NCBI GenBank assembly: GCA_020848855.1
Contig: JADLHH010000481.1
Coordinates: 1 to 7,518 of the forward strand
Reading direction: 5' to 3'
Source of the DNA: Anaerolineae bacterium
GTDB lineage: Bacteria; Chloroflexota; Anaerolineae; Aggregatilineales; Phototrophicaceae
DNA length: 7,518 bases
Shown: in pieces, positions 1 through 7,518 of the stretch
How the letters are laid out: each line of letters starts with the position of its first letter
How positions within the stretch are numbered: the stretch's first letter is position 1
Program-made: the position numbers and the translations under genes
The notes under the pieces: generated by a model
What the model saw: only the letters and a program-made list of their open reading frames with translations
The model's database searches: none
What the model was told of the DNA's origin: nothing

Positions 1-189
1 CTCATTCTGAATCATCGATATCTGCTCCGTGTGCTCAAAGAATATACAACCTACTACAATGTCGCCCGTTCGCATCAAGGCATTCACCAACAAGCTCCCA
101 TTCCGTTCTCCAGTCCGCAGCACGGCAACATCCATTGCCGTGACGTTCTTGGCGGCATTCTGCACGACTACTACCGTGAACCTGCCTGA
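1..189 (+). CDS. Integrase-core (rve-type) transposase, C-terminal end only
   Basis: This reading frame is open at the left edge of the window and ends at TGA 187-189, giving 62 codons with no internal start; the body of the gene lies to the left. The visible protein has the typical tail of DDE integrase-core transposases: a helix with LLRVLKEYTTYYN, then the R-S-H-Q-G motif and a Gln-rich turn (HQQAPIPF), and a closing VLGGILHDYYRE element. Many environmental bacterial integrase-type transposases end in a similar V-L-G-G-L-H-x-x-Y-x-R motif. The DDE residues themselves are not visible, so activity cannot be judged. It is convergent with the large minus-strand operon and marks a mobile-element boundary about 200 bases from the operon's 3' end. 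The family assignment (IS481-like or another integrase-core group) is uncertain; the general call is fairly secure. Confidence 0.82.
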   Translation, partial: LILNHRYLLRVLKEYTTYYNVARSHQGIHQQAPIPFSSPQHGNIHCRDVLGGILHDYYREPA

Positions 190-376: not shown

Positions 377-388
377 GCGCCACGCTCA
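374..388. other. Six-base-pair palindrome at the 3' end of the operon
   Basis: TGAGCG (374-379) and CGCTCA (383-388) form a perfect inverted repeat around a CCA loop. The right arm contains the stop codon of the minus-strand isomerase gene and the left arm contains the stop of the plus-strand aquaporin-like fragment. On the minus strand it is followed by ATTCGTTC, which lacks a proper T run, so it is not a convincing intrinsic terminator. It may still protect the 3' end of the operon mRNA. Confidence 0.3.
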
Positions 389-1828
389 GACGTTCACGCC
401 TTCGAGTTGGACGTAATCGGCATAGGGAATCGGCTTGATCACGTCGATGCCCTTCCAGGCGGCGAACTCCAGCAGTTCGCTGCCGACGCTTCCCTGCCCG
501 ACCGCATAATGATGCTCGTGCCCGGTCACCGTCAGCGTGTTCACCAGATCGATCTGGCTGATCGGCGTCCCATTGAGGCGGAATTCGCTGAACCAGCCGC
601 GCGTCCCGTTGTAGCCGTTCGACGGGCGCTCGACGACATTGGCTTCCAGTGCGAGCAGAGTCGCGCCATCGTGACTGAAGTAGGTGATGGTGGTCGGCTG
701 GGGCGCGAAGACCAGATCGCCCGCCACACCATAGCGCGTCTCGGTCTTGCGTCCCAGTGTGGCATGATCGACCCATTTGATGCCGTCCGCGTTGGCGAAG
801 TGGCGCGGCGAGACGCCGCAGTGCCACAACAGCACATCTCCCGCCTCTGGGTTGAGCACCGCCATGTCGAGCAGGGTGGATGAGCCGTGACGCGCCGTCA
901 GGTTGTTGAGCAGATACATGCCCAGCGCGCCGAGCACGTCGCCCTCGCAGGCGACGGCGACTCCGTCCTCGCTGCCGAGCCAGCTATACGCCATGCACGG
1001 CGCGACGCGGTATAGCTGCTGAATCTCCGACCAGCAGGCGACCGCCAGCGCGTCATAGTCCTGTTCGCGGATCAGGTCGCGCATCGCCAGATACAGCCGC
1101 GCCACCCGGTCAAATGCTGTGTCCTCGCTCACGATGATGGCGCTAGCAGCGCCCTTCACGTCGCGGACAACCTGTGCGACCGGCTGCGGATCGTAAGCCT
1201 TCGCGCGCTCGACCAGCTCGGTCATGGTGTGCGCGGCAATCGTGCTGCCGAGCCGCTGTTTGACCCGATCCGCGTCGAACTGCATGTTGGTGAAGCCCGG
1301 CACGAGTCCGCCGATCCAGCCGATACGCGCCCGCTCCATATTCTTGACGGCAGTCAGCGCGCGGATGGTGATGCCGAAACGCCGCCGGAAGTCGTCGTCC
1401 TCGACCTGCCCGTAGAACCACTTGAACGGGATGCTCTCAGCGCTCAGGTCGCGCCTGAGGATGCTGGCGAAATGGCTCATGGAGACGAACGAGTGCAGCT
1501 TGATGTCGCCTTCGCGCTCCGGCTCTGGCGTCGCCCATAAGCCGAGGCGGGGCGCGGCGTGCGCTAGCGGCGGAAGCTGCTCGCCCATGCTGCACCCCGA
1601 CGTTTGCAGCATCAGAAAATCGACGTTCTGCGCTTTCAGGTAACGGGCGGCGGCTTCGGCGGCTTCCACGCTCATCACGGCATCGCTGACGGCGACCAGA
1701 TCGAAGTCGAGTTCCTGCGCCAGCCGGGTCAGCCCGTCGATGGCGCGCTCGCGCTGGCGGTACTCGCTGGCAAAATAGCTGGAAATCGACGTGCCAACGA
1801 ATCCGACGCGCAGTTTATGCTTCGCCAT
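386..1828 (-). CDS. L-fucose/L-arabinose isomerase-family protein (COG2407-like)
   Basis: This 480-residue protein belongs by overall pattern to the FucI/AraA sugar isomerase superfamily, metal-dependent enzymes that interconvert aldoses and ketoses. The N-terminal part (about 1-170) has the Rossmann-like opening KLRVGFVGTS and an LQTSGCSMGEQLP loop. The later part carries likely metal ligands: Glu268 in ACWSEI, Glu295 and Asp297 in ACEGDVLGAL, and histidines at 336 (LWHCG) and 437-440 (TGHEHHYA); which of these bind metal is inferred from family layout. At 480 residues it is shorter than E. coli-type FucI (about 590) and nearer AraA length, so substrate is open. The start at 1828 is chosen because GGAAGGA lies 8 bases upstream; an ATG at 1852 in the same frame has no such site. 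It overlaps the end of dhaL by 14 bases and is the last gene of the operon. Related isomerases act on several sugars, including modified ones. Confidence 0.8.
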   Translation of the reverse strand: MAKHKLRVGFVGTSISSYFASEYRQRERAIDGLTRLAQELDFDLVAVSDAVMSVEAAEAAARYLKAQNVDFLMLQTSGCSMGEQLPPLAHAAPRLGLWATPEPEREGDIKLHSFVSMSHFASILRRDLSAESIPFKWFYGQVEDDDFRRRFGITIRALTAVKNMERARIGWIGGLVPGFTNMQFDADRVKQRLGSTIAAHTMTELVERAKAYDPQPVAQVVRDVKGAASAIIVSEDTAFDRVARLYLAMRDLIREQDYDALAVACWSEIQQLYRVAPCMAYSWLGSEDGVAVACEGDVLGALGMYLLNNLTARHGSSTLLDMAVLNPEAGDVLLWHCGVSPRHFANADGIKWVDHATLGRKTETRYGVAGDLVFAPQPTTITYFSHDGATLLALEANVVERPSNGYNGTRGWFSEFRLNGTPISQIDLVNTLTVTGHEHHYAVGQGSVGSELLEFAAWKGIDVIKPIPYADYVQLEGVNV

Positions 1829-2456
1829 GCTGATTTTCCTTCCAATAAGCATTCATCGCCGCGAACATGACGCCGATGGAGCGCGCGCCGGCATCGACAT
1901 GACCGAGCGCCCGTTCGCCGACAAAGCGGGCGCGACCGTGCTGGGCGACCATGTTGGCGGTCGCCTGCGCGCCTTTGGCGGCGGCTGCCGCCGCCTGCTC
2001 GAACGACTCGTCCAGCGCTGCGCCCGCTTCGAAAGCGTCAACAGCGGGCTGAAGCGCGTCGATCATGGTCTTGTCGCCGGGCTGCGCCTTGCCGCGCGCG
2101 ATCACGCCGACCAGCGCCGCGTGCCAGAGCGCTTTCATGTCGGCGTGCGAGAGCGTCGCTTTGTCCTTCGCCGCCATACCCGCGCGCAGAAACAGCGTAC
2201 CGTAGAGCGCGCCCGACGCGCCGCCCATCCGGTTCATCAGCGATTGAGCGGTCGCGCTCAGGATGCTGGTCGGCGTTGGCTGGTCGAGCGCGGCGACTTT
2301 GTCGGCAGCGTCGGCGAAGGCGACGCTCAGCGACGTGCCGTGATCGCCGTCGCCGAGCGCCGAATCGAGGCGGTTGAGTTCGTCGCGTGATTCGGCGATA
2401 GCAGCGCTGATCGCGGCGATCATGCCGATGAGTTCGTGGATGCCGATCTCGGTCAT
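1815..2456 (-). CDS. dhaL: Dihydroxyacetone kinase ADP/ATP-binding subunit DhaL
   Basis: This 213-residue protein has the usual length of a stand-alone DhaL and all its signatures. They are an all-helical start, the metal-binding aspartates Asp31, Asp36 and Asp38 in LDSALGDGDHG (matching D30/D35/D37 of E. coli DhaL), the nucleotide loop GGASGALYG at 78-86, GDKTMIDAL at 127-135, and the C-terminal GERALGHVDAGARS at 180-193. It supplies the nucleotide site that phosphorylates substrate held by DhaK, in the cytoplasm. In PTS-linked systems DhaL carries a permanent ADP recharged by DhaM; no DhaM is present here, so the phosphoryl donor could be ATP or a DhaM encoded elsewhere. The ATG at 2456 overlaps the dhaK stop as ATGA, which sets this start rather than a longer one at 2501; the ribosome site is weak, so translation is probably coupled to dhaK. 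Confidence 0.92.
   Translation of the reverse strand: MTEIGIHELIGMIAAISAAIAESRDELNRLDSALGDGDHGTSLSVAFADAADKVAALDQPTPTSILSATAQSLMNRMGGASGALYGTLFLRAGMAAKDKATLSHADMKALWHAALVGVIARGKAQPGDKTMIDALQPAVDAFEAGAALDESFEQAAAAAAKGAQATANMVAQHGRARFVGERALGHVDAGARSIGVMFAAMNAYWKENQHGEA
1837..1843 (-). promoter_or_regulatory. Ribosome binding site of the isomerase gene
   Basis: GGAAGGA on the minus strand, 8 bases before the ATG at 1828. It is embedded in the Trp-Lys-Glu codons near the end of dhaL and decides the isomerase start against the upstream in-frame ATG at 1852. Confidence 0.65.
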
Positions 2457-3469
2457 GGCGCGACCATCTTCAGATACGCGCCGTTCGCCGGGGCATCCCA
2501 CAACCGCTTGAGTTCATCGTCGACCCGGCAGAGCGACAGCGCGAATCCTGCCGTCTCCTGGGTGGTGGCATACGCGCCGATCCACGACCGGTAGACGCCG
2601 ACGCCAGCCGCACTCAGCCGTTCGGCGACGCGGCGGTAGAGGATGAACAACTCCATCAGGGTCATGCTGCCGCTGTTGTTGAGCAACACCAGCACCTCGT
2701 CGCCAGACGCGAAGGGCAGGTCTTCGAGAATTGGCGGGAGCATCAGATCAATCGTCGCGTCGGCGGAGACCAGCTTCTGCCGCCCCATACCAACTTCGCC
2801 ATGTACACCCATGCCGATCTCGATCTGGTCGTCGGGCATCTCGAACATGGTCTCGCCGGTGACCGGGTGGGCGCAGGAGGTCAGCGCGACGGCGAGCGTG
2901 CGGCTGTTATCACGGATTTTTTCGGCGAGCGACTTGCACGCCGGCAGCGAAGCGCCCGTTTCGGCAGCCGCGCCGAGCATCTTCCAGACGAAGAACAGCC
3001 CGGCAGAGCCACGCCGATCTGGCTCGCGTCCTTTGGGAGCGCTGGAAATGTCGTCGTACAGCACAACCATCTCGACGTTCGACGTGCCTTCCATTTCACA
3101 CAGTTCGAGCGCCATCTCGGCGTTCATCAGGTCGCCGGCGTGATGCGAGACGCACACCAGCACGCCCGCGCCCCGGTCGGCAGCTTTGATGCCATCGAGG
3201 ATACGCTCCGGTCCTGGCGCGGTGAAGATTTCGCCGGGGATATTCACGTCGAACAATCCCTCGCCGACCAGCCCGATCATGGCGGGTTCGTGACCGCTGC
3301 CGTTGCCGATCACCAGCCCAACTTTGCCCGCCGCTTTCGGCTGGCGGCGGACGATCAGCCCTGTGTCGGTCAGGCGCACGATGTCGCCGTAAGCGCTGGC
3401 GAAGCCCGCCAGCATTTCGGTGAGGATGTTTTCGGGTCGATTGATCAGTTTCTTCTTGCGCACCGACAT
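2453..3469 (-). CDS. dhaK: Dihydroxyacetone kinase substrate-binding subunit DhaK (divergent)
   Basis: This 338-residue protein matches DhaK, which binds dihydroxyacetone or related short ketoses covalently and presents them to DhaL. It opens with KKLINRPENILTEMLAGF, typical of the family. Key residues are present: GNGSGHEP at 55-62 (His60), Asp113 in the AGD motif, the Asp-Asp pair 139-140, and His223 in GMGVHGEVG, the histidine that forms the hemiaminal with substrate; these correspond to H56, D109 and H218 of E. coli DhaK. Some conserved patches differ from the usual form: SHHAGDLMNAEMA stands where NYTGDxxNFxxA is common, and GNGSG replaces GGGSG. That suggests a divergent branch, perhaps with another ketose as substrate. 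The start at 3469 follows a GGAG 5 bases upstream; the same frame stays open to 3733 but the extra part lies inside the DUF35 gene and does not look like DhaK. Confidence 0.88.
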   Translation of the reverse strand: MSVRKKKLINRPENILTEMLAGFASAYGDIVRLTDTGLIVRRQPKAAGKVGLVIGNGSGHEPAMIGLVGEGLFDVNIPGEIFTAPGPERILDGIKAADRGAGVLVCVSHHAGDLMNAEMALELCEMEGTSNVEMVVLYDDISSAPKGREPDRRGSAGLFFVWKMLGAAAETGASLPACKSLAEKIRDNSRTLAVALTSCAHPVTGETMFEMPDDQIEIGMGVHGEVGMGRQKLVSADATIDLMLPPILEDLPFASGDEVLVLLNNSGSMTLMELFILYRRVAERLSAAGVGVYRSWIGAYATTQETAGFALSLCRVDDELKRLWDAPANGAYLKMVAP

Positions 3470-3471
3470 GA

Positions 3472-3993
3472 TCACTCCAGTGGGACAAAGCGCATCAGGT
3501 GGATGGGGTGGAACACGGCATGATCGACGTACTGCACGCGCACGCGCATCCCAATCGTAACCGATTCGGGCGGCGCGTCCAGCAGGTGCGGAAACAGCGT
3601 CGAAGCACCGTCGAGCAGCACGTATGCCAGCACGTAGGGCGTCGCCAGCGCTTCCACGTCGGGATTGCTGCCCGGCGAGAAGTGCAGCACGGAAAACGTC
3701 TCGACCGTCCCCGTGCCCGGCAGATCGATCCATTCGGCGATCTGCGTGCAGTCCGGGCAGAGCGGGCGCGGCGGGGCGTAGACGCGCCCGCAGTTCGGGC
3801 AGCGCGTCGCCATGAAGCGGCGATTTTCAAGCTCTGCAAAGAAGCGCGAATACTTGCCCAGACTGTGGGTGTAGCGTTGCGCCATTTCGAGATTCAGCCG
3901 CTCAATCAGCCGGAAATCTGCCCAGGGATCATGCGGGTGCTTCAGCGGATCGGGAACGGTTTGCAGGTCCTTCTTGCTGGTCACGTCTGCCAT
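3472..3993 (-). CDS. DUF35 zinc-ribbon/OB-fold protein, partner of the thiolase-like protein
   Basis: A 173-residue protein with the standard DUF35 layout: a helical N-terminal part, then a rubredoxin-like zinc ribbon with Cys65, Cys68, Cys79 and Cys82 (CPNCGRVYAPPRPLCPDC), then an OB-fold of beta strands from about residue 85 to 170, including GTGTVETFSVLHF and YVLAYVLLDG. DUF35 proteins form complexes with thiolase-superfamily enzymes. Known cases are the archaeal thiolase/HMG-CoA synthase complex, where the DUF35 protein bridges the two enzymes, and the Ltp2 aldolase with the DUF35 domain of ChsH2. The stretch before the zinc ribbon (about 60 residues, predicted helical, charged) is longer than in many relatives. 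The ATG overlaps the upstream thiolase-like stop by one base (TGATG), which strongly suggests coupled, stoichiometric synthesis of the two partners. It is not itself expected to be catalytic. Confidence 0.9.
   Translation of the reverse strand: MADVTSKKDLQTVPDPLKHPHDPWADFRLIERLNLEMAQRYTHSLGKYSRFFAELENRRFMATRCPNCGRVYAPPRPLCPDCTQIAEWIDLPGTGTVETFSVLHFSPGSNPDVEALATPYVLAYVLLDGASTLFPHLLDAPPESVTIGMRVRVQYVDHAVFHPIHLMRFVPLE
3475..3478 (-). promoter_or_regulatory. Ribosome binding site of dhaK
   Basis: GGAG 5 bases before the ATG at 3469. It lies in the last sense codons (Leu-Glu) of the DUF35 gene. It supports the short dhaK start, only 2 bases after the DUF35 stop codon. Confidence 0.6.
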
Positions 3994-5198
3994 CAGTCCC
4001 GCCGTTCAAATATGTTGACGACCGCAATCGTGCCGATCCCGGCGTGGGTGTCGGTGAGACCACGCCGCGCGCTGGTGACCTGACGGCGCGGATCGACCTC
4101 GCTCCACAACTGCTGGACGATCTCAATTGCCTGCACGATCCCGGTCGCGCCGACCGGTGCGCCGCGCCCCAGCAGTCCGCCGCTGGTGTTGACCGGCAGC
4201 GCACCGTCCAGATCAAATACGCCGTCGGCGACGCGCTCGCCGCCCTGACCGACTGGGACGAAGCCCAAATCCTCGACCGCCTGAATCTCGACACCGCTGT
4301 AGCTGTCGTACAACTCGGCAACGTCGATTTGTTCGAGCGGATTGCTGATGCCTGCCATCGCATACGCCTGTTGGGCGGCGGCTTGCTTCGCCCGGAAGTG
4401 CATGATTTGCGGGTAGCGGTCGCCCAGGCGCATCGTGTCGGTTCCGCAGCCTGTCGCCGCGTAATAAACCGCCGGACGCTGCGCGAATTTCGGGCTGTGC
4501 GCCTTCGCCCATGCTTCCGTCGCCAGCAGCATCGCCGCCGCGCCGTCGCTCAGCAGGCTGCAGTCGAGCAGTTTGTACGGCTCGGCAACCGGGCGCGACG
4601 CCAGCACGTCGTTGATGGTCAGGTCCATCGGCTTCTGGGCGATGGGATTAAAGCGCGCGTTGCGGCGGTTGCGCACAGCGACGTGGGCGAACTGCGCCTC
4701 GGTCGTGCCGTAGGCGCGCATGTGGGCGCGCATCATGGCGGCGTAGAAGGCGGTGTACGTCCCGCCGATCATCATCTCCCAGTCGAAATCAGCGGAGAGC
4801 GCGAATAACTGATTCGCCGTTTTGGATGACACGCTGCGCCCGTTGGTCTCACCGCCGTAAACGAGGATCGAGTCGCACAGCCCGCTCTGAATGTGCGCCC
4901 AGGCGGTGCGCAGCGCCAGTGCGCCGGTCGCGCCGCCGCCCTCGACGCGCAGCGTCGGCATCGGCGTCAAGCCGATCTGGTCTTGCAGGATGGCAGCCAG
5001 CGTCATCTGGCGGTTGAAGTGGTCGCTCTCGTAGCTCGCCAGCCCGTGTTGGATAGTCCTGATGTCGGTCACGTCGGCGTCGGCGAGGCAATCGAGCACC
5101 GCTTCGGTCACGAGGTCGCGGATATTGCTGTCGGCGCGGTCGGACGCGAACGGCGTCACGCCGACGCCGACAACAACCGGCAGTCGTGTGTCGGTCAT
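3993..5198 (-). CDS. Thiolase-superfamily (SCP2-thiolase-like) protein lacking the canonical Cys and His; possible Ltp2-type aldolase
   Basis: The 401-residue protein has the full SCP2/lipid-transfer thiolase scaffold: VVGVGVTPF at the start, a RVEGGGATGALAL nucleophile-elbow segment at 84-96, LLSDGAAAMLLA at 215-226, NTSGGLLGRGAPVGATG at 337-353, and TIAVVNIFE near the end. The nucleophilic cysteine expected in the C-A-S/T-G motif is Gly89 (codon GGC), and the histidine expected in G-H-P-x-G-A-T-G is Ala347 (codon GCA). The H-D-C/A-F motif reads YDSYS with Tyr297. A normal acetyl-CoA acetyltransferase reaction is therefore unlikely. Ltp2, a thiolase-like retro-aldolase that works with a DUF35 partner, also lacks the thiolase cysteine and depends on tyrosines, so carbon-carbon cleavage or formation on an acyl-CoA is the leading inference; a non-catalytic role is the alternative. 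A strong GAGGAGG site lies 7 bases upstream, and the start overlaps the aldolase stop as ATGA. Confidence 0.85.
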   Translation of the reverse strand: MTDTRLPVVVGVGVTPFASDRADSNIRDLVTEAVLDCLADADVTDIRTIQHGLASYESDHFNRQMTLAAILQDQIGLTPMPTLRVEGGGATGALALRTAWAHIQSGLCDSILVYGGETNGRSVSSKTANQLFALSADFDWEMMIGGTYTAFYAAMMRAHMRAYGTTEAQFAHVAVRNRRNARFNPIAQKPMDLTINDVLASRPVAEPYKLLDCSLLSDGAAAMLLATEAWAKAHSPKFAQRPAVYYAATGCGTDTMRLGDRYPQIMHFRAKQAAAQQAYAMAGISNPLEQIDVAELYDSYSGVEIQAVEDLGFVPVGQGGERVADGVFDLDGALPVNTSGGLLGRGAPVGATGIVQAIEIVQQLWSEVDPRRQVTSARRGLTDTHAGIGTIAVVNIFERRD

Positions 5199-6175
5199 GC
5201 GTCTGCCTCCTCATAGGCACGATACCAGTCGGTTGAGACCGGCTCGCAGGCGATGCGGCTCGTCCAGGGTGCGCCGGTTTGCGCGCACGCCGCGAGTCGC
5301 TGCATTCGCTCGCGCCCGGTCGTATCCAGCCAACGCTGCCGCTCGTCCTCGTCGATCATCAGCGCGGCTTCGCCCCACACGGCGCGCCCGACGATGTAGC
5401 CGGACGCGCCCGCCGCGCAGGCAACCTCAACTTGTCGGCAGAAAGCGTCAAAGCTGACCCCGGCGCTCAGCAGCACCCAGGGGACATCTATCGATGCAGT
5501 TAGCTCGGCGCAGGCATCCCGGCACAACGCTTCGTTCGCCTCCAGCACCGGTGTCACCGGAAATTCCAGCTTGAGCACATCCGCGCCAACTGCGGCAACC
5601 CGGCGCGCCGTCTCGATCACGCGCCGCGTGAACTGTCCGTCGTATACAGTCTGGATTTCGCCAATCGGGTACAGGATCGGCTCGGTATAGAGCGGGATGT
5701 CGTGATCGGCGCAGTCGGCGACCACCTGCCGCAGCAGCGCATCCTGTTTCGCCGCCAGTTCCAGCGCGTCGGGATTGTAGTAAAAGAACAGCTTGACCCC
5801 GTCCGCGCCAATGCGCTTGATGCGGACGACGCTCCAGCCGGGCAAGATTTCGACTTCCAGCGGCATTGGCGCAAGCTGGTAATCGGCTTTTTCCAGCTCG
5901 ACTAGCAGCCCGGCGCTGCCCAGATACCCGCCGCTGATCGCCTGCGCCGCGCTGTAGATCGGGTCGAGCAGCACACCGGATATATCTGAGGCGAGGGCGG
6001 CGACCACCTGCCGCTTAAAGGCAATCACCTGCTCGGTGGTGACAGTTTGCGGCGCGGCGGAGTTCATCGCTCGCTTCAGGGCGTCGCTGTGGTCAAGCGC
6101 CAGAATATTGAAATATCCGTCCGGCGTGCTGGCGCGCTGCAGCGCCCGATATTTCCCAACCGTGACCTGCCTCAT
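5195..6175 (-). CDS. Class I aldolase of the LacD / tagatose-1,6-bisphosphate aldolase family
   Basis: A 326-residue TIM-barrel protein, the usual LacD length. Family residues are visible in order: NILALDHSDALKR at 23-35 (Asp28), ADGVKLFFYYNPD at 124-136 (Lys128), YTEPILYP at 163-170 (Glu165, matching the catalytic Glu163 of LacD), GADVLKLEFPV at 197-207 with Lys202 as the Schiff-base lysine (K205 in LacD), and the phosphate-type loops LLSAGVS at 235-241 and GYIVGRAVW at 259-267. Such enzymes cleave ketose (bis)phosphates to DHAP plus an aldehyde; family members include sulfofructose-phosphate aldolases. LacD usually has D-Q-R-G-A/S-L where this protein has D-H-S-D-A-L, so the substrate may differ. 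With DhaK-DhaL alongside, cleavage of an unphosphorylated or singly phosphorylated ketose is possible. The ATG at 6175 overlaps the aldehyde dehydrogenase stop as ATGA and has GGTGA 8 bases upstream; an in-frame GTG at 6190 would add five residues and is less likely. Confidence 0.86.
   Translation of the reverse strand: MRQVTVGKYRALQRASTPDGYFNILALDHSDALKRAMNSAAPQTVTTEQVIAFKRQVVAALASDISGVLLDPIYSAAQAISGGYLGSAGLLVELEKADYQLAPMPLEVEILPGWSVVRIKRIGADGVKLFFYYNPDALELAAKQDALLRQVVADCADHDIPLYTEPILYPIGEIQTVYDGQFTRRVIETARRVAAVGADVLKLEFPVTPVLEANEALCRDACAELTASIDVPWVLLSAGVSFDAFCRQVEVACAAGASGYIVGRAVWGEAALMIDEDERQRWLDTTGRERMQRLAACAQTGAPWTSRIACEPVSTDWYRAYEEADA
5206..5212 (-). promoter_or_regulatory. Strong ribosome binding site of the thiolase-like gene
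   Basis: GAGGAGG, near-perfect anti-Shine-Dalgarno complement, 7 bases before the ATG at 5198. It lies within the last codons (Glu-Glu-Ala) of the aldolase gene and is the best ribosome site seen in the operon, hinting at high expression of the thiolase-like/DUF35 pair. Confidence 0.75.
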
Positions 6176-7518
6176 TCGTATTTCACCCACACGCTCTTGA
6201 CTTCGCTGTACAGGTCAATTGCCTCTTTGCCCATTTCGCGCCCGTGCCCACTCTGCTTGTAGCCACCGAACGGCGAGGCGGCGTCGGTGTTGCCCCAGGT
6301 GTTGATCCAGATCGTCCCCGCCTGCAGCCTGGCGGCGAAGCGGTGCGCCGTAGCCAGATCGCGCGTCCAGAAACCCGCCGCTAATCCGTAGGGTGTGTCA
6401 TTGGCGCGGCGCAGCAGGTCATCCGGGTCGTCGAACGGCATAGCACACACGACCGGACCGAAAATCTCCTCGCAGACGAGCTTCATGTCGTCGCGGACGT
6501 TGACGAAGATCGTCGGCTCGATGAAATAGCCATCTTGCAGCGCGCCGCCCATGCGTTTGCCGCCGATCATGCTGCTGCCGCCCGCTTCGTAGCCGTTCTG
6601 GATGTAGCCCATGACCGTGTTCATCTGCTCGGCGCTGATTACGGGACCCAACTGCGGTTGGTCGCGCTGCATCCCCATGCCGATCTTGATTTTTTCCGTC
6701 TCGTCCGCCATACCCTCGATCACGCGGTCGAAGATTGGGCGCTGGATGTACAGACGCGACCCCGCCGTGCAGGACTGCCCGTTGTTGCCGAAGATCGCCC
6801 AGGTCGCCCCGGTGATGGCGTTGTCGAGGTCAGCGTCGGCGAAGATGATATTCGGGCTTTTGCCGCCCAGTTCCAGCGAAACACGCTTCAGCGTCGCCGC
6901 CGAACTGCGGATGATCGTTTTAGCCACGCTGACGCTGCCGGTGAAGCCGATCTTGTTGACGCCGAGTTGTTCGACCAGCGCCGCGCCTGCCGTCTCGCCG
7001 TAGCCGGTGATTACGTTGAATACGCCCGGCGGAAAGCCGACTTCCTCGAACAACTGCGCCAGATACAGCGTGCTGAGCGGCGTCTGCTCGGCGGGCTTGA
7101 GGATAATACAGTTGCCCGCTGCCAGCGCCGGGGCAATCTTCCACGACGCCATTAGCAGCGGATAATTCCAGGGGACGATCAGCCCGCAAACGCCGACCGG
7201 CTCGCGCACGGTGTAGTTGAACATGCCTTGCGCGCTGACCGGAATGGTCGTGCCCTCGATCTTGGTGACCCACCCGGAGTAATAGCGGAAATGCTCGGCG
7301 GAGAGCGGCGCGTCGACCGTTTCGGTCACCGAGACGGGTCTGCCGTTGTCGAGCGAATCCAACTGGGCGAAGACCGGCGCACGCGCCTCGATCAGATCGG
7401 CGAAGCGCCAGATCAAGCGGCTGCGGTCGGCGGCGGTCAGCTTGAGATGCCACGCGCCGCTGTCGAACGTCTGCCGCGCCGCGCGAACCGCCTTGTCCAC
7501 GTCCAGCGCGCCGCCCGA
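6172..7518 (-). CDS. NAD(P)-dependent aldehyde dehydrogenase, 5' end beyond the window
   Basis: The frame is open at the right edge; 448 residues are visible and roughly 40-50 N-terminal residues should lie outside. It is a typical ALDH-superfamily enzyme oxidising an aldehyde to an acid. Counting from the first visible residue (Ser at 7518), the signatures are PWNYPL with Asn117, LKPAEQTPL with the cofactor Lys141, FTGSVSVAK, the general-base motif LELGGKSPN with Glu216, the catalytic Cys250 in NNGQSCTAGSR, EEIFGPVV at about 350, and SPFGGYKQSGHGRE near the C-terminus. All catalytic residues are intact. The pattern is that of ALDH1/2- and betaine-aldehyde-type enzymes; the exact aldehyde cannot be told. 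It is the first visible gene of the operon and probably oxidises the aldehyde released by the downstream aldolase, or by the thiolase-like protein. A GTG at 7500 is internal (V in LDVDKAV), not the start. Confidence 0.93.
   Translation of the reverse strand, partial: SGGALDVDKAVRAARQTFDSGAWHLKLTAADRSRLIWRFADLIEARAPVFAQLDSLDNGRPVSVTETVDAPLSAEHFRYYSGWVTKIEGTTIPVSAQGMFNYTVREPVGVCGLIVPWNYPLLMASWKIAPALAAGNCIILKPAEQTPLSTLYLAQLFEEVGFPPGVFNVITGYGETAGAALVEQLGVNKIGFTGSVSVAKTIIRSSAATLKRVSLELGGKSPNIIFADADLDNAITGATWAIFGNNGQSCTAGSRLYIQRPIFDRVIEGMADETEKIKIGMGMQRDQPQLGPVISAEQMNTVMGYIQNGYEAGGSSMIGGKRMGGALQDGYFIEPTIFVNVRDDMKLVCEEIFGPVVCAMPFDDPDDLLRRANDTPYGLAAGFWTRDLATAHRFAARLQAGTIWINTWGNTDAASPFGGYKQSGHGREMGKEAIDLYSEVKSVWVKYE

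Follow-up and report, generated by a model that had tools for sequence, protein, structure and literature searches.

What does a protein of the thiolase fold do once the catalytic cysteine and histidine of thiolases have both been replaced? The question is raised by a gene on the minus strand (positions 3993..5198) of a 7,518-nucleotide stretch of DNA, here called the window, from contig JADLHH010000481.1 of an Anaerolineae bacterium (assembly GCA_020848855.1). Its 401-residue product has glycine at position 89, alanine at position 347, a YDSYS motif starting at Tyr297 and an Asp383-Thr-His385 motif. A sequence-only reading of the window had proposed that the protein is maintained rather than a thiolase in decay, and that it has an aldolase or other new activity. 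Our analysis indicates that the window protein almost certainly no longer performs thiolysis and has turned to non-thiolase chemistry. With about an even chance of being right, we read it as a DUF35-dependent carbon-carbon (C-C) lyase or ligase that would act on a polar acyl-coenzyme A (acyl-CoA) in an undescribed sugar pathway, of which we infer every reaction, the order, the substrate and the protein complex.

The reading frame is unbroken, with no frameshift and no internal stop. VEGGGATG begins at residue 85 and includes Gly89 (codon GGC, read at 4934-4932), which aligns with the nucleophilic Cys both in 7yvy, 6esq and 6hsj and in those Chloroflexota thiolases of the comparison that carry one. 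GAPVGATG begins at residue 346 and places Ala347 opposite the GHP His of the same proteins, and Y297-D-S-Y occupies the place of HDCF. SCP2 and archaeal thiolases (6HSJ, 6ESQ, 7YVY) keep the Cys, the HD motif and the GHP His, all of which the window protein lacks; alignment with these thiolases and with the steroid aldolase Ltp2 upholds both replacements that the sequence-only reading had called. Thiolase domains are detected by Pfam and NCBIfam, and the predicted structure has the thiolase fold; the model used came from a wider alignment, an earlier one (predicted local distance difference test, pLDDT, 79.9) having had poor loops. All 25 NCBIfam models listed score the protein under their own cut-offs, among them PRK06365 (NF004982; 337.1 bits against an equivalog cut-off of 695) and the lipid-transfer model PRK07855 (161.6 bits against 469), which presumably covers Ltp2.

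The replacements extend to the relatives of the protein. We compared 282 proteins, the query and 281 different homologs listed by three protein searches; the best 120 hits per search were listed, and the 281 are therefore near relatives and not a random sample of thiolases. The Chloroflexota side contributes 161 homologs, and 120 form an alphaproteobacterial branch (named members are Alphaproteobacteria or unspecified) at ~40% identity. Gly89, Tyr297, Asp298, Asp383, Lys271, Asn337, Glu57, Ser58 and Asp59 each occur in 282/282, as does Thr or Ser at position 384; position 347 is Ala in 281 and Ser in one, and His385 is present in all 281 of these sequences that reach that far. The YDSYS motif holds for its fixed Tyr-Asp pair and less so beyond it, position 299 being Ser in 260 and Ala in 22, and position 300 Tyr in 265, Phe in 16 and Cys in one. 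Judged from the alignment, Gly89, Tyr297, Asp298 and Ala347 are family traits and not chance. Decay or frameshift is excluded by the intact frame together with active-site replacements fixed across the family, and the protein is, as had been claimed, a maintained one.

The sequence-only reading had named an intact Cys and His supplied from neighbouring positions as evidence that would count against it. Both were sought in all 282 aligned proteins and are absent: no protein has a substitute nucleophilic Cys at 86-93 or a substitute His at 337-356. Cys occurs somewhere within 81-98 in 20/282, and Cys213 is the one Cys that the two branches have in common; many Cys-bearing thiolases share it. An ordinary thiolase with an unusual nucleophile would suit the fold and the family scores, but it is scarcely credible in a family that lacks such a Cys and any GHP-loop His and that has Ala for Ser299 in 22 members. 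One source labels many of the relatives 'acetyl-CoA C-acetyltransferase', a name that probably misleads, as had been suspected.

A survey of 301 Chloroflexota genomes for the window protein gave matches at a loose threshold in 138 and at family level (>700 bits) in two, one of them the centre genome itself. Of the 30 survey loci fetched, two hold family members; in the thiolase-like proteins of the others, the nucleophile position is occupied by Cys in 22, by Gly in three (L023, L047, L048), by Ala in L039 and by Pro in L040 and L049. A missing Cys alone is thus not rare, and it is the combination of residues that marks the window family. The proteins of L023, L047 and L048 have 42% identity, a similar S-H-A-G loop and the HD and GHP His kept; the L023 gene, read in L056, passes the PRK06365 cut-off (744 against 695 bits). 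In a 57-row tree, the deepest forks of which are weak, both branches of the window family are united (100/98) with these three as sister group (99/96); Ltp2 groups elsewhere with L051 (the ibuprofen-plasmid protein), L052 and 4U4E (100/99). A 32-row tree with CtSal added keeps the picture (97/95, 98/97, 100/100). The trees thus favour placing the window family nearest PRK06365-like proteins and apart from Ltp2, Sal and the ibuprofen-plasmid relative. Forcing the family into one clade with the steroid-type aldolases costs 8.9 log units and is not formally rejected (approximately unbiased, AU, p 0.0696); the Cys was therefore more probably lost separately in this family, though this is not proven.

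PRK06365 proteins ('thiolase domain-containing protein', with no function named) share the Gly at the nucleophile position and the S-H-A-G loop with the window family, and in both loci inspected a DUF35 gene adjoins, as in the window. They differ in keeping the HD His and the GHP His and in an insert after a D-x-M-R motif, and no sugar gene was found among the few neighbours scanned at L056, unlike in the window cluster. The two genes, L056:8778-10578 (over the cut-off) and L057:9787-11493 (assigned by similarity), lack the nucleophile Cys, and their type is another unexplained Cys-less thiolase family. PDB entry 4U4E (Sphaerobacter thermophilus, 'putative thiolase'), which groups with the steroid-type aldolases, has Gly for Cys, Y-D-S-F and a kept His at the GHP position, and is perhaps also no thiolase. 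A Gly/YDHF thiolase-like gene on plasmid pIBU218 of Rhizorhabdus wittichii (L051:4980-6134) stands with DUF35 and CoA transferase genes; its product lies closest to TcLtp2 among the rows of both trees and is likely the ibuprofen side-chain remover.

Cys-less thiolase-fold aldolases with a DUF35 partner are already known. They act in the removal of steroid, bile-acid and ibuprofen side chains and, to our knowledge, in no other contexts. The likeness to Ltp2 that had been proposed stands in part. The Ltp2-ChsH2(DUF35) steroid aldolase (6OK1; structural information as related in PMC12329534) shares with the window protein the thiolase fold, a Gly in place of the Cys, a Tyr-Asp where thiolases have His-Asp, and a DUF35 partner, the DUF35 gene lying directly next to the thiolase-like gene in the window. 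Close kinship is not supported: Ltp2 is on a separate branch in both trees, the window family falling on the PRK06365 side, and the catalytic acid Tyr344 of Ltp2 corresponds to Ala347 and its His296 to Ser299. No steroid gene was recognised among the window and relative cluster genes scanned. The bile acid aldolase Sal-Shy(DUF35) (9MYR) matches in Gly89 and in Tyr302 (Tyr297 here); it is also on a separate branch, its essential Cys304 (YDCY) is replaced by the Ser or Ala at position 299, and its Gln352 by Ala. With the acids of both Ltp2 and Sal absent, the known aldolase mechanism cannot simply be copied.

The DUF35 partner (3472..3993, minus strand; 173 residues) combines a zinc ribbon (zf-ChsH2) with an OB fold (OB_ChsH2_C), and the thiolase-like stop and the DUF35 start share one base (TGATG). 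Neighbourhoods were compared at 17 loci of GTDB genomes, of which 16 bear titles naming Chloroflexi or Anaerolineae/-aceae and one Candidatus Fraserbacteria, with neighbours counted by tblastn (E 1e-15) within the fetched flanks. DUF35 adjoins the thiolase-like gene in 16/17; in L005 the contig ends just after the thiolase-like gene. The DUF35 proteins of L012 and L015 are without the fourth ribbon Cys. The two proteins very likely form a complex. It could in principle be a catalytically dead scaffold in which pseudo-thiolase and DUF35 hold the pathway enzymes together. In known complexes described in PMC12329534, DUF35 contacts join thiolase to HMG-CoA synthase or PhlC to PhlA, and both textbook catalytic residues are lost here. 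A scaffold would, however, hardly need Tyr297, Asp298, Lys271, Asn337, Asp383 and His385, which are fixed like glycines over ~40% identity, and we consider this explanation improbable.

How might such a site work? The C-C bond next to the CoA thioester would be made or, more likely, broken by acid-base catalysis without a covalent acyl-enzyme. The acyl-CoA would sit in the old thiolase cleft, where Gly89 would give space and a backbone amide at the former Cys place. Tyr297 would accept the proton of the beta-hydroxyl, the bond to the alpha carbon would then break, and the enolate would be protonated from the D383-[T/S]384-H385 loop, not from Cys (as in Sal) or Tyr (as in Ltp2). We take this loop to lie where classical thiolases carry their second Cys (the CxG loop). 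Two simpler assignments were rejected. Ser299 is excluded as catalytic acid by Ala in 22/282, and His385 does not itself stand in for the classical Cys: the fuller alignment has Thr384 in that place, with His385 one residue further on, and the loop alone is claimed. An aldolase-like activity is what we infer, and whether the reaction is lyase chemistry on an acyl-CoA is evenly poised.

The surrounding genes point to sugars. In order of transcription, the window cluster comprises an aldehyde dehydrogenase, a LacD-type aldolase, the thiolase-like protein, DUF35, DhaK, DhaL and an SftI-like isomerase, all on the minus strand. The aldehyde dehydrogenase gene (6172..7518) has its 5' end cut by the window edge. 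The LacD-type class I aldolase (5195..6190; up to 331 residues, start uncertain) has a DeoC/LacD match, scores 247 bits with PRK12858 (cut-off 184), and its gene overlaps the thiolase-like gene by four bases. The DhaK-type kinase subunit (Dak1; 2453..3469; 338 residues, start at the ATG of MSVRKKK) reaches 333.1 bits with TIGR02363, under the cut-off of 406 for canonical dihydroxyacetone kinase. The DhaL-type subunit (Dak2; 1815..2456; ~213 residues from the ATG at 2456) scores 187 bits with TIGR02365 (cut-off 138), in scans that included one extra upstream codon. The sugar isomerase of the SftI / L-arabinose isomerase kind (386..1852; up to 488 residues, start uncertain) gave no match in the Pfam scan; its best model, NF048012 (SftI), gives 136.3 bits, far under the cut-off of 700, and L-arabinose isomerase 19 bits. 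A sulfoquinovose pathway, suggested by SftI being the best isomerase model, was dropped on that score (136 of 700 bits), and no sulfosugar gene was recognised among the cluster genes scanned, the genomes not having been searched for one. At window positions 1-189 (plus strand), the final part of an integrase core domain gives a weak match (rve_2; 18.3 bits, below the cut-off of 22) to an open frame that is possibly the tail of a transposase adjoining the operon.

Across the 17 loci, DhaK is present in 14/14 and the isomerase in 12/12 of those whose contigs reach far enough. DhaL occurs in 12/17 (it was not found between DhaK and the isomerase in L007 and L009), LacD in 11/17, aldehyde dehydrogenase in 9/17, ABC (ATP-binding cassette) ATPase in 12/17 and MFS (major facilitator superfamily) transporters in 6/17. 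Nucleoside-hydrolase-like genes occur in 9/17, PNP-like genes and ADP-ribosylglycohydrolase in 10/17 each, and CoA transferase III and 3-epimerase-like genes in 7/17 each. This context of the thiolase-like gene is probably one of sugars or ribosides, not steroids. In the nucleoside-hydrolase-like proteins of L008:5634-6716 and L016:7487-8632, D-T-D-x-H-N-[EQ]-I-D-D was seen by eye near the N-terminus; the usual nucleoside hydrolase motif, D-x-D-x-x-x-D-D, is two residues shorter, so that an ordinary nucleoside may not be the substrate.

Plasmids of Marinovum algicola, Parasedimentitalea marina and Paracoccus seriniphilus (three records matched) carry a related gene set. A single run holds MFS, thiolase-like, DUF35-like, AMP-forming CoA ligase, 3-epimerase-like, DhaL, DhaK, LacD-type, aldehyde dehydrogenase, GntR, isomerase, ABC transporter and nucleoside hydrolase genes. 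The aldehyde dehydrogenase is missing from the Parasedimentitalea run, upstream of which an aldehyde dehydrogenase gene, possibly related, is found on the opposite strand. Between Paracoccus and the Chloroflexota side, identity is 61% for the aldehyde dehydrogenase (that of the window), 53% for the nucleoside-hydrolase-like protein (46% to the L016 copy), 40% for the thiolase-like protein, 31% for the isomerase, 25% for LacD and 23% over 90 residues for DUF35. The Marinovum DUF35 protein, which is short, is not matched by Pfam at E 1e-5; it and that of Parasedimentitalea keep four Cys in the ribbon stretch. The best model for the Marinovum CoA ligase is acetate-CoA ligase (353 bits, under the cut-off of 729).

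The pathway order that we propose is deduced from gene families. After import, a nucleoside-hydrolase-like enzyme would free the sugar, and the isomerase and, in some loci, the 3-epimerase-like protein would turn it into a ketose, from which DhaKL and the LacD-type aldolase would give dihydroxyacetone phosphate (DHAP) and an aldehyde; the aldehyde dehydrogenase would convert the aldehyde to an acid, and a CoA ligase or CoA transferase would form the thioester on which the thiolase-like/DUF35 pair would act. The substrate of the pair would probably be a short polar acyl-CoA derived from the sugar. L-K-x-E-[FLI]-P and G-R-A-x-W, which presumably hold the Schiff-base Lys and the phosphate contacts of known LacD-type members, are kept in 13/13 LacD-type proteins aligned, which favours a ketose 1-phosphate with DhaKL as ketose kinase; cleavage of a free ketose followed by dihydroxyacetone kinase is a possible alternative. 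DhaK keeps G-M-G-V-H-G-E in 15/15 aligned. Where the usual DhaK carries N-Y-x-G-D, the window copy and its relatives have S-H-H-A-G-D (S-H-H-E-G-D in L016) or, in two alphaproteobacterial copies, S-Q-H-S-G-D, an altered stretch that hints at another substrate. DhaM was sought in nine genomes and found in one, which makes the phosphotransferase system (PTS) an unlikely phosphate donor in the other eight.

Could the complex itself be the sugar aldolase, cleaving a free ketose without CoA into an aldehyde and dihydroxyacetone for DhaKL to phosphorylate? The tightest neighbours of the thiolase-like gene, DUF35, DhaK and the isomerase, would agree with this, as would L007, L011, L012 and L017, where LacD was not found near the gene. 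However, a LacD-type gene is present in 9/9 genomes searched, even where unlinked, its key stretches are kept as described above, and two unrelated kinds of CoA-activating enzyme join the cluster, all of which make this role rather unlikely. Other enolate chemistry on an acyl-CoA, either decarboxylation or aldol addition of glycolyl-CoA (from glycolaldehyde) to an aldehyde, is unlikely too, if less strongly so. Starting from a pentose, the route would lead to glycolaldehyde, glycolate and glycolyl-CoA, which the acetate-CoA ligase match in Marinovum would suit. According to PMC12329534, the Cys-less Y-D-C-F protein TbSLP decarboxylates malonyl-CoA, though at 0.005 per second, but the same authors suspect TbSLP itself of being an aldolase; moreover, among the cluster genes scanned, nothing was recognised as a product, acceptor or carboxylating enzyme.

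Several observations weigh against a lyase or ligase acting on a sugar-derived acyl-CoA. No activity is known for the window clade. A CoA activator is absent from the window, and none was found by tblastn in the fetched flanks of L001, L003, L008, L010 and L017. Arg216 of Sal, which contacts the CoA phosphate, is Arg202 here but Pro or Ala in two alphaproteobacterial members compared. The predicted structure is poorest at 59-63, within the proposed pocket, and the placement of His385 against the relatives' Asn shifts by one residue between alignments. In these sequences, Ala299 in 22 members argues against the HDCF Cys position as acid without showing that His385 is the acid. A plain pentose would end in glycolyl-CoA, which has no beta-hydroxyl to cleave; the sugar must then be larger or substituted, or the reaction must be an addition. 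A heptose would yield tetronyl-CoA, which a retro-aldolase could split.

The closest logic is that of the DHAP shunt for 5-deoxyribose and 5'-deoxynucleoside breakdown, in which, according to PMC6079011 and PMC12632272, a nucleoside-derived sugar passes through a ketose phosphate to DHAP and an aldehyde. The kinase, isomerase and aldolase candidates of the cluster are assigned by family scans to DhaK/L, SftI-like and LacD-type proteins and not to the families of mtnK, mtnA and ald2, at which no search was aimed, either in the cluster or in the rest of the genomes. The window pathway would also add an aldehyde dehydrogenase, CoA activation and the thiolase-like pair. The open-licence papers searched yielded no account of this active-site set or sugar context, which is not proof of absence, and nothing joining DUF35, thiolase and dihydroxyacetone kinase.

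Tentatively, and with rather less confidence than in a lyase or ligase as such, the window protein could represent a third, separately derived kind of thiolase-fold C-C lyase, using Tyr297 and the Asp-Thr-His loop as the closing step of a riboside-sugar pathway not yet described, and working in the breakdown of carbohydrates rather than of lipids or steroids: once the sugar had been split to DHAP and an aldehyde, the aldehyde would become a hydroxyacyl-CoA, to be split again by the DUF35-dependent enzyme. If this is true, thiolase-fold aldolase chemistry would extend to carbohydrates in Chloroflexota and marine Alphaproteobacteria, and a pathway now hidden by the 'acetyl-CoA acetyltransferase' annotation would be defined. 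The window family would also become a test case for how one fold can lose its nucleophile and gain lyase activity.
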